Virus record (IMG/VR): IMGVR_UViG_3300046536_000055
Coordinates: 1 to 25,523 of that record
Source of the DNA: a virus
Length of the DNA stretch: 25,523 bases
Direction: 5' to 3' (one strand)
Below, piece after piece: positions 12,453-22,425 of the stretch (the stretch's first letter is position 1; the number at the start of each line of letters is the position of its first letter). Position numbers and translations under genes: made by a program. The notes under the pieces were generated by a model. It was not told where the DNA came from and made no database searches. It worked only from the letters and a program-made list of their open reading frames with translations.

Positions 12453-14894
12453 TCAGTTGCCCACCTGGGCAGGCAAAGTCGATGCGTCCGCGTTCACCCT
12501 GCCGGCAGGCGCGCTCGTCGGCTGCATCTGCTTGTAGCTTTGGATCGATGTCTTCTGGAAAAGATCGCCGTTGGTTTTCGTTTTCGCGCGGGCCGCAGTG
12601 CCATCGGAATGGATCTGGACATGAACCTGCCCGTCGACCTTCTGGGCGCCGGCAATGCGCTCGTCGATGCGGCGGTAGCTGAAAGGCTGATCGGTCGGGA
12701 AATCCTTCTTTGAGTAGCCCATCTGCTCGGCAGCGGATGCCGAGATGTCGATGCCGCGCCCAGTGCGCGCCGCCGGCCCAATGTCGGTCTGCGGCAGCAT
12801 GAAAGTTCGGCCATCTGGCGTTGTTACCTCGTGCATCTTGCCCAGGCCGGAACGCGACGGCAGCGCAATGCCAGGGACATAATTTGGCACGCCGGATGCC
12901 GTCTTGCGGCCATATGGCTCGGTTCGATCGGTGCCGAACCCGAAGCCGCTGCCAAATACCGATCCCTTTACGGTCGTTCCATTTCCCGGGCCGCCGCTTG
13001 ATTGTGCTGCGATCTCCGATGCCTTTCCTGGCTCGACGCCGTTTTTTATTAGCGCCTGTCGGGCAGCTTCGAAATTACGAATTCCGAAATGTCCGGTGTC
13101 AGGTCTTCGCCATTGATGCCCGGAAACCATTCCCCATTTGGCGGCGAGCGCGTCCTCGACGTCGGGTGCCAAGCTTGTTCCCCGTTTCGAGCGGACGCCG
13201 TAGCCGATCTGATTCACATCGATTGCCGCGCCAATCGGGTGCCCACTGGCATTTCTTGGGCGAAAGCCGAGCGATCCGGTATCGGGACCGAGAACGCCGC
13301 CCGCTTTTTCATAGTCGCTTAGGAAGCCTTTGAAATTTTGGGCGTATCGCGCGTCTACCTTGAATTGCTTGCCGCTCGGCGTGGTTACAGTCGCCAAGCC
13401 TGTTTTTGTGATCGCCGTGCCTGCCGGGGCCGTGATGCCACCCGAACCGCCCCCCGAGCCCCTTGGAGCGGCGCCGCCCGTACCCGCGCCAACGCTACCA
13501 GGGCCGCTCGGACGGCCATCACGATCCCCCGCGCTGCCAGCGCCGCCAGTCGGGCCAGCAGCACCACCGATGCCGCCAGGAATGTTGATGCCGCCGCCGC
13601 CGCCAGAGCCCGCGCCAAGGCCGCCGCCACCGATGGCGCCGCCGCCGCCTACACCGCCGCTCGCGCCCATCCCACCGGTGGCGCCGCCGCCGAAGAACTG
13701 CGCGCGCCCGCCCCCAGCGCCTGCCTGCGCATAGCTCTGGAAATCCACCAGCGCTTCGAACACGCCTGCCTTGACGATGCGTTGCGCGCCGCTCCCATCG
13801 CCGCCCTCGCCGCGCCGGTCCTCGATTTGGCCCTCTGCGTTTGGGAACGGTAGCGCGCTCAGAAAGTCGTCGTACTTGCCGCCGCCCCCCATGTCGGCGA
13901 ACTTGAAGACCGCACCGGGCAACCCCGGCACTGTTGATCCGGGCGGCGTCGGCACGAATGGCGGTTTGAACGCGGGGGGCAATGGGGGCGGCGGCATTTG
14001 CACGGGCGCTCCCAAGGTGCCAGCGGCCGTCTTCTTTGAATCAACCCACTTTAGAAAGTCGTCCCATTGCTGCTGATATCTCTCCATCTTTTCCATTTCG
14101 GAAGTCAGCCAAGGGAAAAGCGGCGTCGCGACCTTGTTCTTCAATTCGTCCCAAGTTTCGCCAAGGTTTACCAGACCCTCTATGTACTTTTGCGCGGCCT
14201 CCTCTTGTTCATTTGTTCTCGGAGTCAGTTTTGCGAACGTCGCTGCAACCTCATCCGCAGATACCCTCAGCAACTCGGCATTTAGGTGCAAATCGGTGAA
14301 TAATTGCTGCGCCCGATATTGACCGTTCGGCAGCGTCAAAAGCGTATCTTTGAATTTGAAGACTTCGACTAGTTGCTTTCCCTCGTCTTTCAACCCCTTT
14401 AGTTTCGACGCCAGAGGCCCGGCGCCCTTGGCGTACAACTCCATCGCGCTGCCCTGATTGTACTGCAGGGCTCCCATCGCATCGTGAAATCCCTTAAGGC
14501 CCTGCATCATTGACTGCGATGAAACGCCAACCTTCTGAGCCGCGACGCTCCAAGCGCGAATTTCGCGCTCGCTCATGCCCAGTTCTTTGCTGGCGAATTT
14601 CAGCTCAACGAGCTTGTCGGCCACGTCGCTGAAGGTTCGCAGGATGACGCCTGCGGCCACGCTAGCGCCTGCAGCGCCGAGCCCGAACGCGCCCAGAGAC
14701 GGAACGATGGATGTTATTTCCTTGCCGACGCCCTGGATCGTCTTGCCGAGAGTCCCGAAGGTCTTGTTCAGGTCATTTACGGCCGGCTTGATCCGCTGCG
14801 GCATTGCGCCGATTTCGCGGCCCCACGTGCGGAGAGCCGCGAGGCTTTCCTCTGTCGAAATCGTCGCCCGCATGCGCAGGATATCGTCAACCAT
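12453..14894 (-). CDS. Tape measure protein with M15-type peptidase and double-psi-barrel (RlpA-like) regions
   Basis: An 813-residue tail protein that sets tail length and is probably ejected into the cell envelope ahead of the DNA. Residues 1-60 are helical, 62-86 hydrophobic, and 90-290 mostly helical (the ruler part). Residues 296-326 are Pro-rich and about 393-490 extremely Gly-rich. Residues about 500-612 resemble an M15 / VanY-like LD- or DD-peptidase: SGHPIGAAIDVN (His552, Asp559), then HQWRRPDTGHFGI (His602). Residues about 645-722 resemble a double-psi beta-barrel of the RlpA/3D kind: KTASGVPNYVPGIALP, then QTDIGPAARTGRGIDIS (Asp704, Asp716). GGAG precedes the ATG at 14894. The large central low-complexity part makes the true helical ruler shorter than total length implies. 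Confidence 0.88.
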   Translation of the reverse strand: MVDDILRMRATISTEESLAALRTWGREIGAMPQRIKPAVNDLNKTFGTLGKTIQGVGKEITSIVPSLGAFGLGAAGASVAAGVILRTFSDVADKLVELKFASKELGMSEREIRAWSVAAQKVGVSSQSMMQGLKGFHDAMGALQYNQGSAMELYAKGAGPLASKLKGLKDEGKQLVEVFKFKDTLLTLPNGQYRAQQLFTDLHLNAELLRVSADEVAATFAKLTPRTNEQEEAAQKYIEGLVNLGETWDELKNKVATPLFPWLTSEMEKMERYQQQWDDFLKWVDSKKTAAGTLGAPVQMPPPPLPPAFKPPFVPTPPGSTVPGLPGAVFKFADMGGGGKYDDFLSALPFPNAEGQIEDRRGEGGDGSGAQRIVKAGVFEALVDFQSYAQAGAGGGRAQFFGGGATGGMGASGGVGGGGAIGGGGLGAGSGGGGGINIPGGIGGAAGPTGGAGSAGDRDGRPSGPGSVGAGTGGAAPRGSGGGSGGITAPAGTAITKTGLATVTTPSGKQFKVDARYAQNFKGFLSDYEKAGGVLGPDTGSLGFRPRNASGHPIGAAIDVNQIGYGVRSKRGTSLAPDVEDALAAKWGMVSGHQWRRPDTGHFGIRNFEAARQALIKNGVEPGKASEIAAQSSGGPGNGTTVKGSVFGSGFGFGTDRTEPYGRKTASGVPNYVPGIALPSRSGLGKMHEVTTPDGRTFMLPQTDIGPAARTGRGIDISASAAEQMGYSKKDFPTDQPFSYRRIDERIAGAQKVDGQVHVQIHSDGTAARAKTKTNGDLFQKTSIQSYKQMQPTSAPAGRVNADASTLPAQVGN

Positions 14895-15856: not shown

Positions 15857-16513
15857 TCAGGCGGCGACCCTCTGGCGCAGCATCGACACGCCGTCCTGCA
15901 GCGTGACCTTCTGAAAGCAGCGGATCGCGGATGTCGGGCAGGCGTTTACGATGTTGACGCCGCGGCTGCGCAGGTGCGGCACATAAACCGAAAAGTGTTC
16001 CGCCCATTCAGCCCAGCGCCCCGCGCTGCGCGCGCGCTGCTTTTCTCCGAAGTTGAGAAATCCGCCGTCATAGTTTCCGTCGTAGTCGAAGCCGAACAGC
16101 ACGATTTCCCGCGCTCGCTTGTGGATGCAGACTTGCAGCGCGCCGAAGCTGCTGGTGCCGCCGCCGTAAATCTCGCCGGGATTTTCCGCGACGCCCAGGC
16201 CGTCGAGCCGCTTCAAAAGCGTGATGTTCTTCGATGGATACGGAACGCCCCCGACCTGATCCGGGGGCACGGCCCAATAGACGCGGCTTTGCACGCCGGC
16301 GAGCCGATCGCGCCACTCTATGTACCGCGCCATATTGACGCCGAAACCCGCATCGGCCCATGGGATTTCGAACACCGTGCGCTTCACGGCGAGAACGTGC
16401 GCGCCGCGCAGCCGCTCGAAATCGAACCCCAATAGCGATGGCCCGCCGCCGATCACGGCAACGGGCTTGTCGTCCCAATAGGGCTTCGCTATTTTGCCGA
16501 ACGGGTCCGCCAT
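15857..16513 (-). CDS. MptE/DUF115-like Rossmann-fold protein inserted in the tail module
   Basis: A 218-residue protein with a Rossmann-like plan: VAVIGGGPSLLGFDF (residues 18-32) with a GGGPSL nucleotide-binding-type loop. A second glycine-rich segment follows at 117-127 (GGGTSSFGALQ), then a strand ending in EIVLFGFDYDG (136-146), then a conserved-looking NACPTSAIRCF near the end. This pattern matches the DUF115 / 6-hydroxymethylpterin pyrophosphokinase MptE-like group, often found near glycosylation genes and in some phages. I chose ATG 16513 rather than an upstream in-frame start because that extension is only the other frame of the zinc-finger gene and the TAATG junction is tight. It is not a known structural gene, so it may be cargo or a modification enzyme. 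The substrate is unknown. Confidence 0.72.
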   Translation of the reverse strand: MADPFGKIAKPYWDDKPVAVIGGGPSLLGFDFERLRGAHVLAVKRTVFEIPWADAGFGVNMARYIEWRDRLAGVQSRVYWAVPPDQVGGVPYPSKNITLLKRLDGLGVAENPGEIYGGGTSSFGALQVCIHKRAREIVLFGFDYDGNYDGGFLNFGEKQRARSAGRWAEWAEHFSVYVPHLRSRGVNIVNACPTSAIRCFQKVTLQDGVSMLRQRVAA

Positions 16514-16716
16514 TAGGGTGCTCGATTTCCTTTGGCCTGATTTTCCCTTGCTGGGATCTTGCGTTGATCCGCCCACGCGGGCGTGGCACAGTTCGCGCCG
16601 TTTGGCTTCGCGCGACATTCGGTCGCTAAACCACGCCACTCCTTTTTCTTGAGGGCAACGAAAAACTCCGGTGTTGCCGGGAATTCTTCGCCACACTTTT
16701 TGCACTGCCTTTTCAT
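16513..16716 (-). CDS. Small zinc-finger-like protein inserted after the sheath gene
   Basis: A 67-residue basic protein beginning MKRQCKKCGEEFPATPEFF, the start commonly seen in small phage zinc-finger and HNH-associated proteins. Cys5 and Cys8 form the first CxxC knuckle. The expected second knuckle is abnormal: the remaining cysteines are Cys34 and Cys43, eight residues apart, with a Lys/Arg/Asn-rich tail. Either it binds zinc in an unusual way or its 3' half is degraded or frameshifted from a longer homologue. Its stop shares one base with the start of the next gene (TAATG at 16511-16515), so the two form a small cassette. Function is not known; a nucleic-acid-binding role is plausible from composition alone. 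Confidence 0.55.
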   Translation of the reverse strand: MKRQCKKCGEEFPATPEFFVALKKKEWRGLATECRAKPNGANCATPAWADQRKIPARENQAKGNRAP

Positions 16717-19631: not shown

Positions 19632-20645
19632 TCAGGAATGCGTCCCCTTCAGCAGCGCCAGGGGGCGCGAGCAGAAGTTGAGCGCGTTCATCTGCGTGTC
19701 GATGTTGACGCCCTTGTCGTTCTCCATCGGGTATTGCTTGACGTAGCGCGGCAACCCCATCGTGTTGACGGTTTCGATGTAGTCGGCGGGGGCATAGATG
19801 GTTGGGAACAGGTTCGGCACGCCTGTCGGATAGAAATAGGCGGCGTCGGTTTCGACCATCGGGGCGCCAGAGACATAGCCGCGATAGTTGGTCCACAGAA
19901 TTCCGCCGAACGCGAACGAACCCCATGCCTGACCGCCCGAAATGTACTGACCGCGCAATTCGGACGCGTCCATCATGTTGAGATAGGTCGCGCGAACCTC
20001 TTGGGCCATGATCAGGGCATCGAAGAAAGCATCGCCGCAAATCGCTTCGACGCCCGTGAAGCCCTGGCCATCGAGGTTGTTGCCCATCGTGCGGATCACG
20101 GTCGCACATTGCTGCCTGATCGCGCCGGTCGCCGTCGCTGCGCCCAGGACGAAGTTGATGGCCGCCGGCGGCGTGATTCCGTACTCGTTGAACAGGTTCA
20201 ACGTCGTGCCGTCCGCATAGGTCACGATGCCCTTGACGGCGCCGACCCGGCTGTATTCCTGGGTGTATTCCAGCGATTGACCGGCGGTCTGCATGCGTTC
20301 GCCGACCTTCGTCATCACCGCTTCGGTGCCGGTCTCCTGGCCGAACGCGCGAACGCCCTGAACTTCCTCGGCCATGATGGCGTCGTTTATTTCGAAGTGC
20401 GGGACGCCCAGAGCCCGCATCGTGCGCCGGGGCTTCGGCATGGTCTGGCCCGGGCCGCCGCGCGGTGTCGGCCTGACCACGGTGAGGATGTTGTTGTGCT
20501 CCTCGATCGCGACCGTGGTCGTCGCCACGGCGATCTCGTTGAATAGCCCCCTGCTTCCGATATACCCGGGGACGAATTTCAGGTTGTTGATTGCGATCGA
20601 GAGCGGGATTGTGCCGAAGGCATCGCCGCGAAAGATATCGAGCAT
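19632..20645 (-). CDS. Major capsid protein, lambda gpE family
   Basis: A 337-residue protein that builds the icosahedral shell (HK97 fold by family). Lambda gpE has 341 residues. I chose the ATG at 20645 (MLDIFRGDAFG), preceded by AAGGGA/CGGA; an upstream in-frame start would only add sequence overlapping gpD. Signatures are the N-terminal LSIAINNLKFVPGYIGS, VATTTVAIEEHNN, and the helix with FGQETGTEAVMTKVGERMQ. Further on come ICGDAFFDALIMAQEVRATYL and the C-terminal GVPNLFPTIYAPADYIETVN. These match the GpE family. It follows the decoration gene by 31 bases and precedes small connector genes, all consistent with a lambda-type head module. Confidence 0.93.
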   Translation of the reverse strand: MLDIFRGDAFGTIPLSIAINNLKFVPGYIGSRGLFNEIAVATTTVAIEEHNNILTVVRPTPRGGPGQTMPKPRRTMRALGVPHFEINDAIMAEEVQGVRAFGQETGTEAVMTKVGERMQTAGQSLEYTQEYSRVGAVKGIVTYADGTTLNLFNEYGITPPAAINFVLGAATATGAIRQQCATVIRTMGNNLDGQGFTGVEAICGDAFFDALIMAQEVRATYLNMMDASELRGQYISGGQAWGSFAFGGILWTNYRGYVSGAPMVETDAAYFYPTGVPNLFPTIYAPADYIETVNTMGLPRYVKQYPMENDKGVNIDTQMNALNFCSRPLALLKGTHS

Positions 20646-20676
20646 TTCCGTGATCCCTTGTTGGATGGACGCTCGC

Positions 20677-21390
20677 TCAGGAGCGGACGATGATGTTGTG
20701 GGCCGCAAGCGCTCTTGCGATTGCCAGCTTGTCGGCGCCGGTGATGGTCACCGGGTAATAGAGAAGGTTGGCGTTCACCTCGGCGTTGCGCGTCAAAACC
20801 GCGATGTTTGCGTTGGCGCCATTTGTGGTGACGCCGTAAATCGCGATGCCGTCGCACGCGGTGTCGGTCGTGACGTTCGGAGCGAACACCGCCGGCGCGG
20901 TCAGAGTCGCCTGCGTTGCGATCTTCAGCGTCTGGCCGATCTTCACGGATCCCGGGTCCGCGATGGTGCCGACATCGCGCGACCCATGACCGTCCGCTTC
21001 CGACAGAATGAACTCGGCCGGGTGCGACGTTTCGGTCTGAACCGGAAACTGCGGCGTGCCGACGAGAAGATTGATCTGGTCCTGCTGCTCCGCGACCAGG
21101 CCCTTTGTCTCGTCATCCTTGGCGCGTTCATCCGGCGTCATCGCGGCGCGCTTGTCGTCCTCCGCCGCACGCTCGGCGGGGCTCAGCGCCGCGCGGCGCG
21201 CATCTTCTTTCCGTCGCGCCTCTGCGTGCTTGCGCGCAGCGGCGATCCGCTCTTCATTTGCCTTGTATTCGTCCGCACGGAGTTTTTCGTCTGCCTTGAA
21301 TGCAGCCGCACGACGTTCATCAGCCCTCTTGTCCGCATCCGCGCCAATCGCCGCCTGATGCTTGGGCTCTGCTTTTGCATTTTCAGCCAT
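20677..21390 (-). CDS. gpD-like head decoration protein with long charged N-terminal extension
   Basis: A 237-residue protein whose residues about 115-237 resemble lambda gpD, which binds as trimers on the expanded capsid and stabilises it. Matching signals are the length of that part (about 110-120), the beta-rich LKIATQATLTAPAVFAP segment, TACDGIAIYGVTTNGAN, and the final VTITGADKLAIARALAAHNIIVR. Residues 1-105 are very unusual: a helical, Ala/Lys/Arg/Glu/Asp-rich arm with recurring RADE/KADE/KANE units and two similar stretches, LSPAERAAEDDKRAA and MTPDERAKDDETKG. A strong AAGGAG lies 7 bases before the ATG at 21390. It is located between protease and capsid gene, as D is in lambda. Whether the arm is retained in virions or cleaved is unknown. 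Confidence 0.85.
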   Translation of the reverse strand: MAENAKAEPKHQAAIGADADKRADERRAAAFKADEKLRADEYKANEERIAAARKHAEARRKEDARRAALSPAERAAEDDKRAAMTPDERAKDDETKGLVAEQQDQINLLVGTPQFPVQTETSHPAEFILSEADGHGSRDVGTIADPGSVKIGQTLKIATQATLTAPAVFAPNVTTDTACDGIAIYGVTTNGANANIAVLTRNAEVNANLLYYPVTITGADKLAIARALAAHNIIVRS

Positions 21391-21408
21391 TTGAAACTCC
21401 TTCTGGCT

Positions 21409-22425
21409 TCACTTCCTCAAACGGGCGTTGATTTTGTCGGTGATCTTCGACCACGCCGTCGCGGCGACTTGCGCAGGCGGCAACAGCGGATGCTGCGGCA
21501 TCACCGACGGCTCGTCGGCGCGGGCCAGCAGCTCCTTGCGCACCTGCTCGACCGGCGTGCCCGCGCGCACGTAGGCGCCGACGCGTTCGGGCGCGCGCGC
21601 GAGAGCGCAGAGATCGGTGATGCTGTCGACGTAAGCCTTGTGTTCGGCGGCGCCGGTCTTCTTGGCGGCGTTTAGGTTGATCAGCTCGGCGGTGGGCTGC
21701 TGCTCGGGCTCGGGCTCGGGCTGCGGGACTGGATCGGATGCCGGCAGCGCGGGAGGAACCGGCTCCGCTGCCGGCACCGCCGCAGGCTCTGGGGGTTCGG
21801 TTTCATCGTCCCCCGCCAGGGCCTGCAGGCGTGCGGCCGCTGCCTTGGGTAACAGCCGCAACGGGAATTTCGCCGCCATCGTGATTGGCGCGGTGACCTC
21901 GTCGGCGAAGCCAAGCGACTTGGCCTCGTCGGCATCCATCAGGCGATCCTCTTTCATCAGCGCCTTTACCTTCGCCTGGGTGGTCTTGGCGCGGCTCGCG
22001 TAGGTGGCGGTCAGCGACTTGTCGATGCGATCGAGATCGTCGGCGAGCGCGCGGATGTCGTCGGCGCTGCCCATGGCGAAGCCCGACGCGCCGTGCACCA
22101 GCATGAAGCTGTTCGAGGGCATGATGATCTTGTCGGCCGCCATTGCGATGAAGCTCGCTGCCGACGCCGCGATGCCGTCGACATGGGCCGTCACAGTCGC
22201 CTTGTGATTCTTCAGGGCGTTGTGGATGGCGACGCCATCGAACACGTCGCCGCCCGGCGAGTTGATGCGCAGCGTGATGTTGCTCACATCGCCCAGGCCG
22301 TTGAGGTCGTCGAGAAACTGCTTTGCGCTGACGGTGTCCTCGCCCCACCATGAGCGTCCGATCTCGTCGTAGATGACGATCTCTGCGGCGGCTTCCTCGG
22401 CTTTCATCTGAAACCACTGGCGCAT
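21409..22425 (-). CDS. ClpP-type prohead maturation protease with C-terminal scaffold-like extension
   Basis: A 338-residue serine protease expected to sit in the prohead and trim capsid-associated proteins during maturation. Residues 1-195 match the ClpP fold. The predicted nucleophile is Ser88 in GIAASAASFIAMA, with His111 in FMLVHGA and Asp160 in LMKEDRLMDADEAK as the rest of the triad. The substrate-binding loop is INSPGGDVFDG. This differs from lambda, whose gpC is an S49/SppA-type enzyme. Residues 207-247 are Pro/Glu-rich. The C-terminal segment (about 255-338, with AEHKAYVDSITDLCALARAP) resembles the helical tail of phage protease-scaffold fusions. No separate scaffold gene is visible, so this tail may do that job (inference). 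The start at 22425 has GGGAG 8 bases upstream. Confidence 0.9.
   Translation of the reverse strand: MRQWFQMKAEEAAAEIVIYDEIGRSWWGEDTVSAKQFLDDLNGLGDVSNITLRINSPGGDVFDGVAIHNALKNHKATVTAHVDGIAASAASFIAMAADKIIMPSNSFMLVHGASGFAMGSADDIRALADDLDRIDKSLTATYASRAKTTQAKVKALMKEDRLMDADEAKSLGFADEVTAPITMAAKFPLRLLPKAAAARLQALAGDDETEPPEPAAVPAAEPVPPALPASDPVPQPEPEPEQQPTAELINLNAAKKTGAAEHKAYVDSITDLCALARAPERVGAYVRAGTPVEQVRKELLARADEPSVMPQHPLLPPAQVAATAWSKITDKINARLRK

Follow-up and report, generated by a model that had tools for sequence, protein, structure and literature searches.

Why would a phage head decoration protein of the gpD type, a standard example of a cement protein that is widely used for display, carry a long, charged arm in front of its folded domain? 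This question is raised by a gene in the 25,523-base stretch of DNA analyzed here (the window), which is an entire virus record. The minus strand carries a lambda-type head module with genes for a gpA terminase, a lambda-family portal, a ClpP-type protease, the decoration protein, and an E-type capsid protein, and a contractile-tail sheath gene comes after this module. A preliminary description, made from the letters of the sequence, had offered two roles for the arm: an internal assembly aid that is later removed by the protease, or an outward capsid fibre. The second option is the better fit of the two. With slightly better than even confidence, the arm can be read as a charge-stabilized single-alpha-helix rod on the outer surface of the head, which would be hinged to the shell and act as a spacer or brush. 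Coordinates of the relevant features are collected in Table 1.

Table 1. Features of the head module and of the decoration protein, with positions in the window
Feature	Position	Strand	Basis or remark
gpD-type head decoration protein with N-terminal arm, 237 aa	20677..21390	-	Pfam PF02924
Major capsid protein E	19632..20708	-	Pfam Phage_cap_E 1.2e-91; open frame; start position provisional
ClpP-type head maturation protease with C-terminal tail	21409..22425	-	Pfam CLP_protease 8.4e-33; PHROG head maturation protease
Shine-Dalgarno AGAAGGAG before arm ATG	21397..21404	-	8-nt match
Predicted single long helix (rod), residues 8-68, 61 residues, about 9 nm	21187..21369	-	AlphaFold2; charge order
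Two short predicted helices (71-83 and 86-95), proposed hinge, residues 71-95	21106..21180	-	AlphaFold2; conserved
Repeat copy 1 EDARRAALSPAERA, residues 62-75, SPAE box	21166..21207	-	tandem repeat, shuffle test
Repeat copy 2 EDDKRAAMTPDERA, residues 77-90, TPDE box	21121..21162	-	tandem repeat, shuffle test
Linker, residues 96-123, low confidence, candidate capsid-binding Dec-arm	21022..21105	-	AlphaFold2, alignment
gpD (beta-tulip) domain, residues 117-233	20692..21042	-	Pfam; Foldseek
156-residue protease tail from conserved internal ATG, proposed Nu3-like scaffold	21412..21879	-	relatives; lambda analogy

Identity of the decoration protein

The decoration gene sits between the genes for the ClpP-type protease and the E-type capsid protein, which is the gene order of the gpD family. 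Residues 117-233 match the HDPD profile (PF02924) over its full length (positions 1-116 of 116; E 3.2e-14; 53.5 bits, with a cut-off of 29.1), and the protein has no match in PHROGs or NCBIfam. The description of a charged N-terminal arm on a 237-residue gpD homologue is thus borne out, with the domain match starting at residue 117. Residues 1-110 correspond exactly to positions 21061..21390 on the minus strand. Residues 1-111 consist of 45% K/R/D/E and 26% alanine, with a net charge of -2, and the RADE-like units that had been pointed out are real in that RADE occurs twice. Two similar 15-residue blocks had also been proposed. Both exist, but their better register differs from the original pairing: the 15-residue tandem repeat EDARRAALSPAERA/EDDKRAAMTPDERA has an ungapped BLOSUM62 score of 46, attained by 0 of 300 composition shuffles, and the pairing as first noted scores 32, attained by 20 of 300.

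Several other open frames in the window can be recorded here. One of 433 aa (20374..21675, plus strand) is antisense to the whole decoration gene and is probably a by-product of high G+C content and codon bias. An ORF at 15857..16609 (minus strand), flanked by the genes for tail sheath and tail tube, has a weak MptE-like Pfam resemblance (E 0.0047, below cut-off), and a similar ORF, judged by eye, follows the sheath gene in the relative L006 (9445..10167). An 813-aa ORF at 12453..14894 (minus strand) is tape-measure-like in size and place, has a Gly-rich middle, and gives a weak Peptidase_M15_4 match (E 0.0055). A Pfam match to a TnsA-like N terminus (E 0.87) was regarded as chance.

Translation and selection of the arm

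If the start codon had been mis-called, the true protein would begin near the domain and the arm would be an untranslated open frame. This reading could draw on an in-frame ATG at residue 84 (M84) and on the armless state of the gpD homologues examined outside the clade described below. However, the frame before the gpD domain contains two start codons alone: the ATG at 21390, which has AGAAGGAG six bases upstream, and M84, which has no Shine-Dalgarno match. Because no other start codon precedes the domain, and none lies between M84 and the domain, a start near residue 105-115, which the preliminary description had named as the finding that would undo its proposal, is excluded on sequence grounds. 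All 22 armed loci tabulated, including the window and three short-armed loci, have an arm-start ATG with a Shine-Dalgarno match of 4-8 nt, but these matches are not independent evidence because such a match was one of the criteria in the manual choice of starts. Five relatives (L025, L032, L033, L034, and L037) have zero start codons within the 45 residues before the gpD domain.

Substitution patterns also bear on this issue. The dN/dS ratio of the proximal arm is below 1 in 15 of 15 pairs (0.03-0.61), and that of the distal arm is 0.10-0.53 in the 12 pairs for which it could be computed, with three saturated; these 15 pairs share rows, and many are near saturation. Of the four pairs that involve the window, three have a proximal arm that has changed less than the gpD domain (for L065, dN 0.17 versus 0.53), and the two are about equal in the pair with L006 (0.27 and 0.23). 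Judged by these ratios, the arm is under purifying selection. Given this selection, the lack of a Shine-Dalgarno match at M84, and the distribution of start codons in relatives, a mis-called start was rejected and seems hardly credible.

Distribution of the arm

Relatives were gathered with the capsid protein as query, which yielded 63 viral and 3 genome loci. A search of genome contigs with the query P0001 found no relative, whereas the capsid protein found the three. When phage records were searched by tblastn with decoration proteins, the window protein retrieved one record, and those of the armless L041 and the armed L037 retrieved none. A gpD frame was present in 60 of the 66 loci and absent by profile search from L011, L020, L045, L049, L051, and L061. 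Arm classes were assigned by hand with near-copies counted (L008-L010 are copies of the window), giving 28 loci with arms of 93-157 aa, 4 with short arms (31, 35, 38, and about 50 aa; L023, L026, L036, and L046), 24 armless, 2 frame-broken, and 2 cut by a contig end so that the arm state is unreadable (L007 and L018). In L029 and L070, the arm frame has no in-frame ATG at its start.

On a capsid tree of 43 rows, of which 24 carry the armed label (short-armed and frame-broken rows included), this label requires two changes compared to a shuffled mean of 14.5, and 0 of 500 shuffles gave a number as low. The armless L041-L043 and L038 branch just outside the armed clade, the armless L039 lies inside it, and short arms arise at three places (L023/L026; L036; L046). 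The capsid protein is 68-73% identical in the armless L038, L039, and L041-L044, and short-armed or armless close relatives retain the same capsid gene and, in those in which it was read, the protease tail. One gain of the arm followed by loss and shortening would be the simplest history, although a capsid-gene tree may misplace such events because gpD genes may be exchanged between phages.

There are sequence comparisons hinting that the gpD gene has indeed been exchanged. The capsid protein of the window is nearest to that of L012 (86%), and its decoration protein is nearest to that of L006 (62%) among the 26 aligned. The gpD core of the window (20677..21042) is divergent from those of L013 and L017 (dN 0.53-0.57), and the corresponding capsid proteins are 82% and 81% identical.

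The sole named host among the armed relatives is Bradyrhizobium barranii (L070), so that the label "Bradyrhizobium-type" has the support of one genome, and "soil" is likewise presumed from L070. This locus is a prophage, and L029 is a matching virus record. Both contain an arm ATG with a Shine-Dalgarno sequence that is out of frame with the arm, beside a run of seven C (at about 3281 in L029 and about 5281 in L070), which could be explained by slippage, by gene disruption, or by a mistake in the sequencing.

For a wider view, PF02924 was sought around Bradyrhizobium in overlapping samples of genomes at the levels of family (391), class (385), and phylum (398), with matches in 36, 25, and 38 of these, respectively. 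The following counts cover the loci that were fetched. Among 67 loci (L073-L139), 54 had readable domains and a charged arm was present in L073 only, which is once more the Bradyrhizobium barranii prophage described above. The 13 unread loci have frames of 56-153 aa, save L125 (222) and L135-L137 (248, 288, and 465; below the family cut-off). None of the readable ones (30) among a further 31 loci (L140-L170) is armed, and armless decoration proteins, of 208 and 126 aa, are also encoded in the two phage records whose capsid proteins are nearest. The concern that such arms might be commonplace among gpD homologues therefore holds inside one clade, and none was seen elsewhere among the loci read, in agreement with the earlier view that the arm is unusual for the family. 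Comparison of these loci indicates that a clade-limited elaboration of gpD by a charged arm is real.

Other elaborations of the family were encountered. Some distant armless relatives have a large insert inside the gpD domain, with frames of roughly 208-327 aa (L057, L058, L060, L062, L064, L067, L069, L072, L091, L093, and, by eye, L172). Another gpD homologue (L168) is extended at its C-terminus by about 110 residues, which by eye have an Ig-like appearance.

Predicted architecture of the arm

The window protein was modeled by AlphaFold2 as a single chain from 26 aligned sequences (mean pLDDT 83.4, pTM 0.48). Block pLDDT values are 90-97 over residues 21-70, which take in most of the predicted rod, and fall under 50 at residues 103-123 of the linker. 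In one sub-clade, the linker contains a conserved DQINLLxG..F patch. The predicted helix breaks coincide with S-P-A-E and T-P-D-E, which we take to resemble helix-capping boxes, and the short helices start at the two repeat blocks. The divergent relative L037, whose sub-clade has a single repeat block, is predicted to have a low-confidence stretch (1-28), a helix (29-99), a second helix (102-109), a linker, and the domain (pTM 0.48). The two models have a common architecture.

With the window model, Foldseek matched Bas63 (9ncf, E 4e-6), Sf14 (9c2d, 1.9e-4), SHP (1td0, 3.5e-4), and lambda gpD (1c5e, 9.4e-3). Each of the eight Protein Data Bank chains matched at E 0.001 or lower belongs to a phage capsid or decoration protein (identity 12-19%; TM-score normalized by target length, 0.54-0.65), and the modeled decoration domain is a beta-tulip fold. 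Eleven predicted viral structures, each of 114-154 aa, matched the L037 model at E up to 0.001. Among solved structures, a phmmer search gave no match and a profile search gave two chance matches only, in charge- or glutamine-rich stretches.

AlphaFold2 is prone to produce confident helices from charged sequence. The arm might be a flexible, disordered polyampholyte, still forming a surface brush, for which the predicted helix is an artefact. Its richness in alanine and charge and the low confidence of the L037 tip and the window linker are compatible with this possibility. The order of the charges speaks against it. In all 19 arms of at least 90 aa, a set that includes the near-copies L017 and L019, the combined z score for i+3/i+4 charge pairs is 2.89-5.95 (window 4.37). 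Pairs of opposite charge are overrepresented at i+3 (mean z 3.64, above 2 in 17 of 19 arms) and at i+4 (mean z 2.36, above 2 in 12) and depleted at i+5 (mean z -1.11) and i+6 (-2.24), as expected for a helix. The window arm alone has a z score of 4.45 at i+3 and 1.46, which is not significant, at i+4, and its spacings 2 and 8 are also raised (2.95 and 2.59). The K/R/D/E content of the 19 arms is 38-52%, with the window at 45%. Such a charge order favors salt bridges along a helix, and SP/TP boxes occur at the predicted breaks. A disordered arm is therefore considered rather improbable, and the helix with its breaks is the predicted state. A coiled-coil fibre was rejected, as no arm of the 19 has a heptad signal at p<0.05 (lowest p 0.079, in L065).

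A candidate scaffold in the protease tail

It had been remarked that the head module has no separate scaffold gene. This is to be expected, since a single gene specifies both protease and scaffold in lambda and in P2 (PMC8508860), and a scaffold candidate is present within the protease tail. According to the accessible part of another source, the lambda scaffold is Nu3, which interacts with E and C (PMC3224144). From 31 protease frames collected, 25 were parsed for the tail junction, four of them from armless phages. Their tails have 129-179 residues (156 in the window), and the start codon at the junction is ATG in 23 of the 25, with one TTG and one CTG; ATG is also found in L022 and L042. 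This start is conserved in armed and armless phages alike. The tail typically ends in W.KITDKxNAR and then basic residues. The distant L052, L059, L060, and L062 are without the junction motif, and all except L060 retain a W.K....N.R-like end.

By analogy with lambda, the scaffold of the window head is most likely this conserved tail. Many frames have little or no Shine-Dalgarno sequence at the internal start, and hence separate translation of the tail is no more than a possibility. The conserved internal start at the ClpP/tail junction can be noted as marking a candidate nested scaffold gene.

These results matter for the proposal that the arm aids assembly from the inside, as the delta domain does in HK97, and is later cut off by the ClpP-type protease. 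The length of the arm does resemble that of the delta domain (102 residues in the excerpt available), and the protease gene adjoins the decoration gene. Yet the arm is carried by a decoration protein, whose lambda counterpart attaches to capsids that have already expanded, and phages with and without arms share the scaffold candidate in the protease tail. Furthermore, the arm is missing or short in relatives that have the same capsid gene. The proposal is thus not supported, was rejected as the main reading, and is very unlikely, although the arm might still be cleaved off.

Placement and possible function

Several published observations help to position the arm relative to the shell. In the excerpts available, lambda gpD joins expanded capsids late (PMC7602432), JBD30 procapsids are without decoration protein (PMC11445458), Dec-arms at the N-terminus attach to the capsid and can connect trimers (PMC7602432, PMC6775164, PMC11821841), and display is possible for fusions joined through a linker to either end of gpD (PMC12656833). 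Because gpD binding is late, Dec-arms grip the capsid, and fusions are displayable, we infer that the linker lies on the shell and the rod outside. The last of these sources, as excerpted, also indicates that both ends of lambda gpD face the shell and that complementation failed with one N-terminal addition of 16 residues (PMC12656833). Thus, it is no trivial matter for such a protein to accommodate a long arm at this end.

By analogy with its family, the protein would assemble into cement trimers that sit on the outer face of the head once it has expanded. Proceeding outward from the shell, the globular domain would be followed by a flexible linker, probably a capsid-gripping Dec-arm, then by one or two short capped helices as a hinge, and then by a rigid helix, some 60-70 residues long (9-11 nm), with a short disordered tip. 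Three such rods per trimer would coat the head and would most likely serve as a hydrophilic spacer or brush that governs how the virion contacts surfaces, other virions, and host exudates. The arm would be dispensable for assembly, as suggested by its absence from L039 inside the armed clade and by the 31 to about 50 aa that remain in L023, L026, L036, and L046.

Alternatively, the arm could lie flat on the outer shell as an extended Dec-arm that joins neighboring trimers in a wider chainmail, making it cement and not a free rod. The N-arms of beta-tulip proteins do join trimers in P74-26 and Sf14, and the proximal arm is well conserved. However, the P74-26 arm has only about 23 residues, the distal arm in this clade is variable in sequence and length with its charge order retained, and armless relatives manage with a 68-73% identical capsid protein. 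Similarly, JBD30 trimers, which are of another fold, are unlinked in the portion of the source available. A flat, trimer-linking arm is consequently unlikely.

If the arm is instead an outward rod, a more specific and more tentative proposal can be made, for which confidence falls somewhat short of even. Phages of a Bradyrhizobium-type soil clade might carry several hundred hinged single-alpha-helix rods per head, one per decoration protein, that together form a polyampholyte brush. The length of this brush might be tuned in evolution by adding or removing helix, for example to control adhesion to other virions, to exopolysaccharide, or to particles of soil. N-terminal arms of 0 to 157 residues on related capsids look like a natural display experiment. 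This variation makes it possible to ask what a surface brush does for a soil phage and what length of N-terminal fusion a gpD-type protein tolerates.

Comparison with known systems

Among the literature matches listed, which include few subscription journals and were available in part, such an arm on a gpD protein is undescribed, and experiments on an armed phage were not found. The closest relatives of the window protein among known systems are lambda gpD and phage 21 SHP, which have the same domain family, fold, and protease-D-E gene order. Their solved chains have 95-109 residues, whereas the window protein has 111 charged-arm residues before its domain. An N-terminal arm on a beta-tulip trimer is likewise present in P74-26 gp87 and Sf14 gp33. 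As excerpted, the P74-26 arm has about 23 residues and is mostly missing from the crystal structure (PMC6775164, PMC7602432), and the Sf14 N-arms form a lattice (PMC11821841). Those arms are short connectors, unlike the linker, hinge, and long predicted helix of the window arm. JBD30 gp39 also forms outer trimers, and its N-terminal residues 1-52 are unresolved by cryo-EM in the portion available (PMC11445458), but its Soc-like beta-tadpole fold differs from that of gpD.

The delta domain of HK97 is charged and helical. Like the window arm, it comprises about 100 N-terminal residues of a head protein, to judge from the excerpt available. It is, however, a part of the capsid protein that is cut off and set free, and the scaffold of the window head is probably the protease tail. 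The head fibre gp8.5 of phi29 combines a beta-tulip base with a helical projection in the available part of its description (PMC7602432), in a manner that is similar to the proposed rod. Its spike is C-terminal and is a three-stranded supercoil, whereas the window arm is N-terminal and the arms show no heptad signal.

A parallel for the arm itself is found among single-alpha-helix (SAH) domains, which are described as rigid connectors that differ from coiled coils and in which opposite charges are arranged in order at i+3/i+4 (PMC5812594). The arms have this charge order and no heptads. Published SAH domains contain up to 80% E/K/R in the same source (PMC5812594), compared to 45% charged residues and more alanine in the window arm, which also differs in that it sits on a phage head protein and that its single helix is a prediction. 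If the proposed rod is correct, rigid single helices would join Ig-like domains, fibres, and supercoils among the known decorations of capsids.
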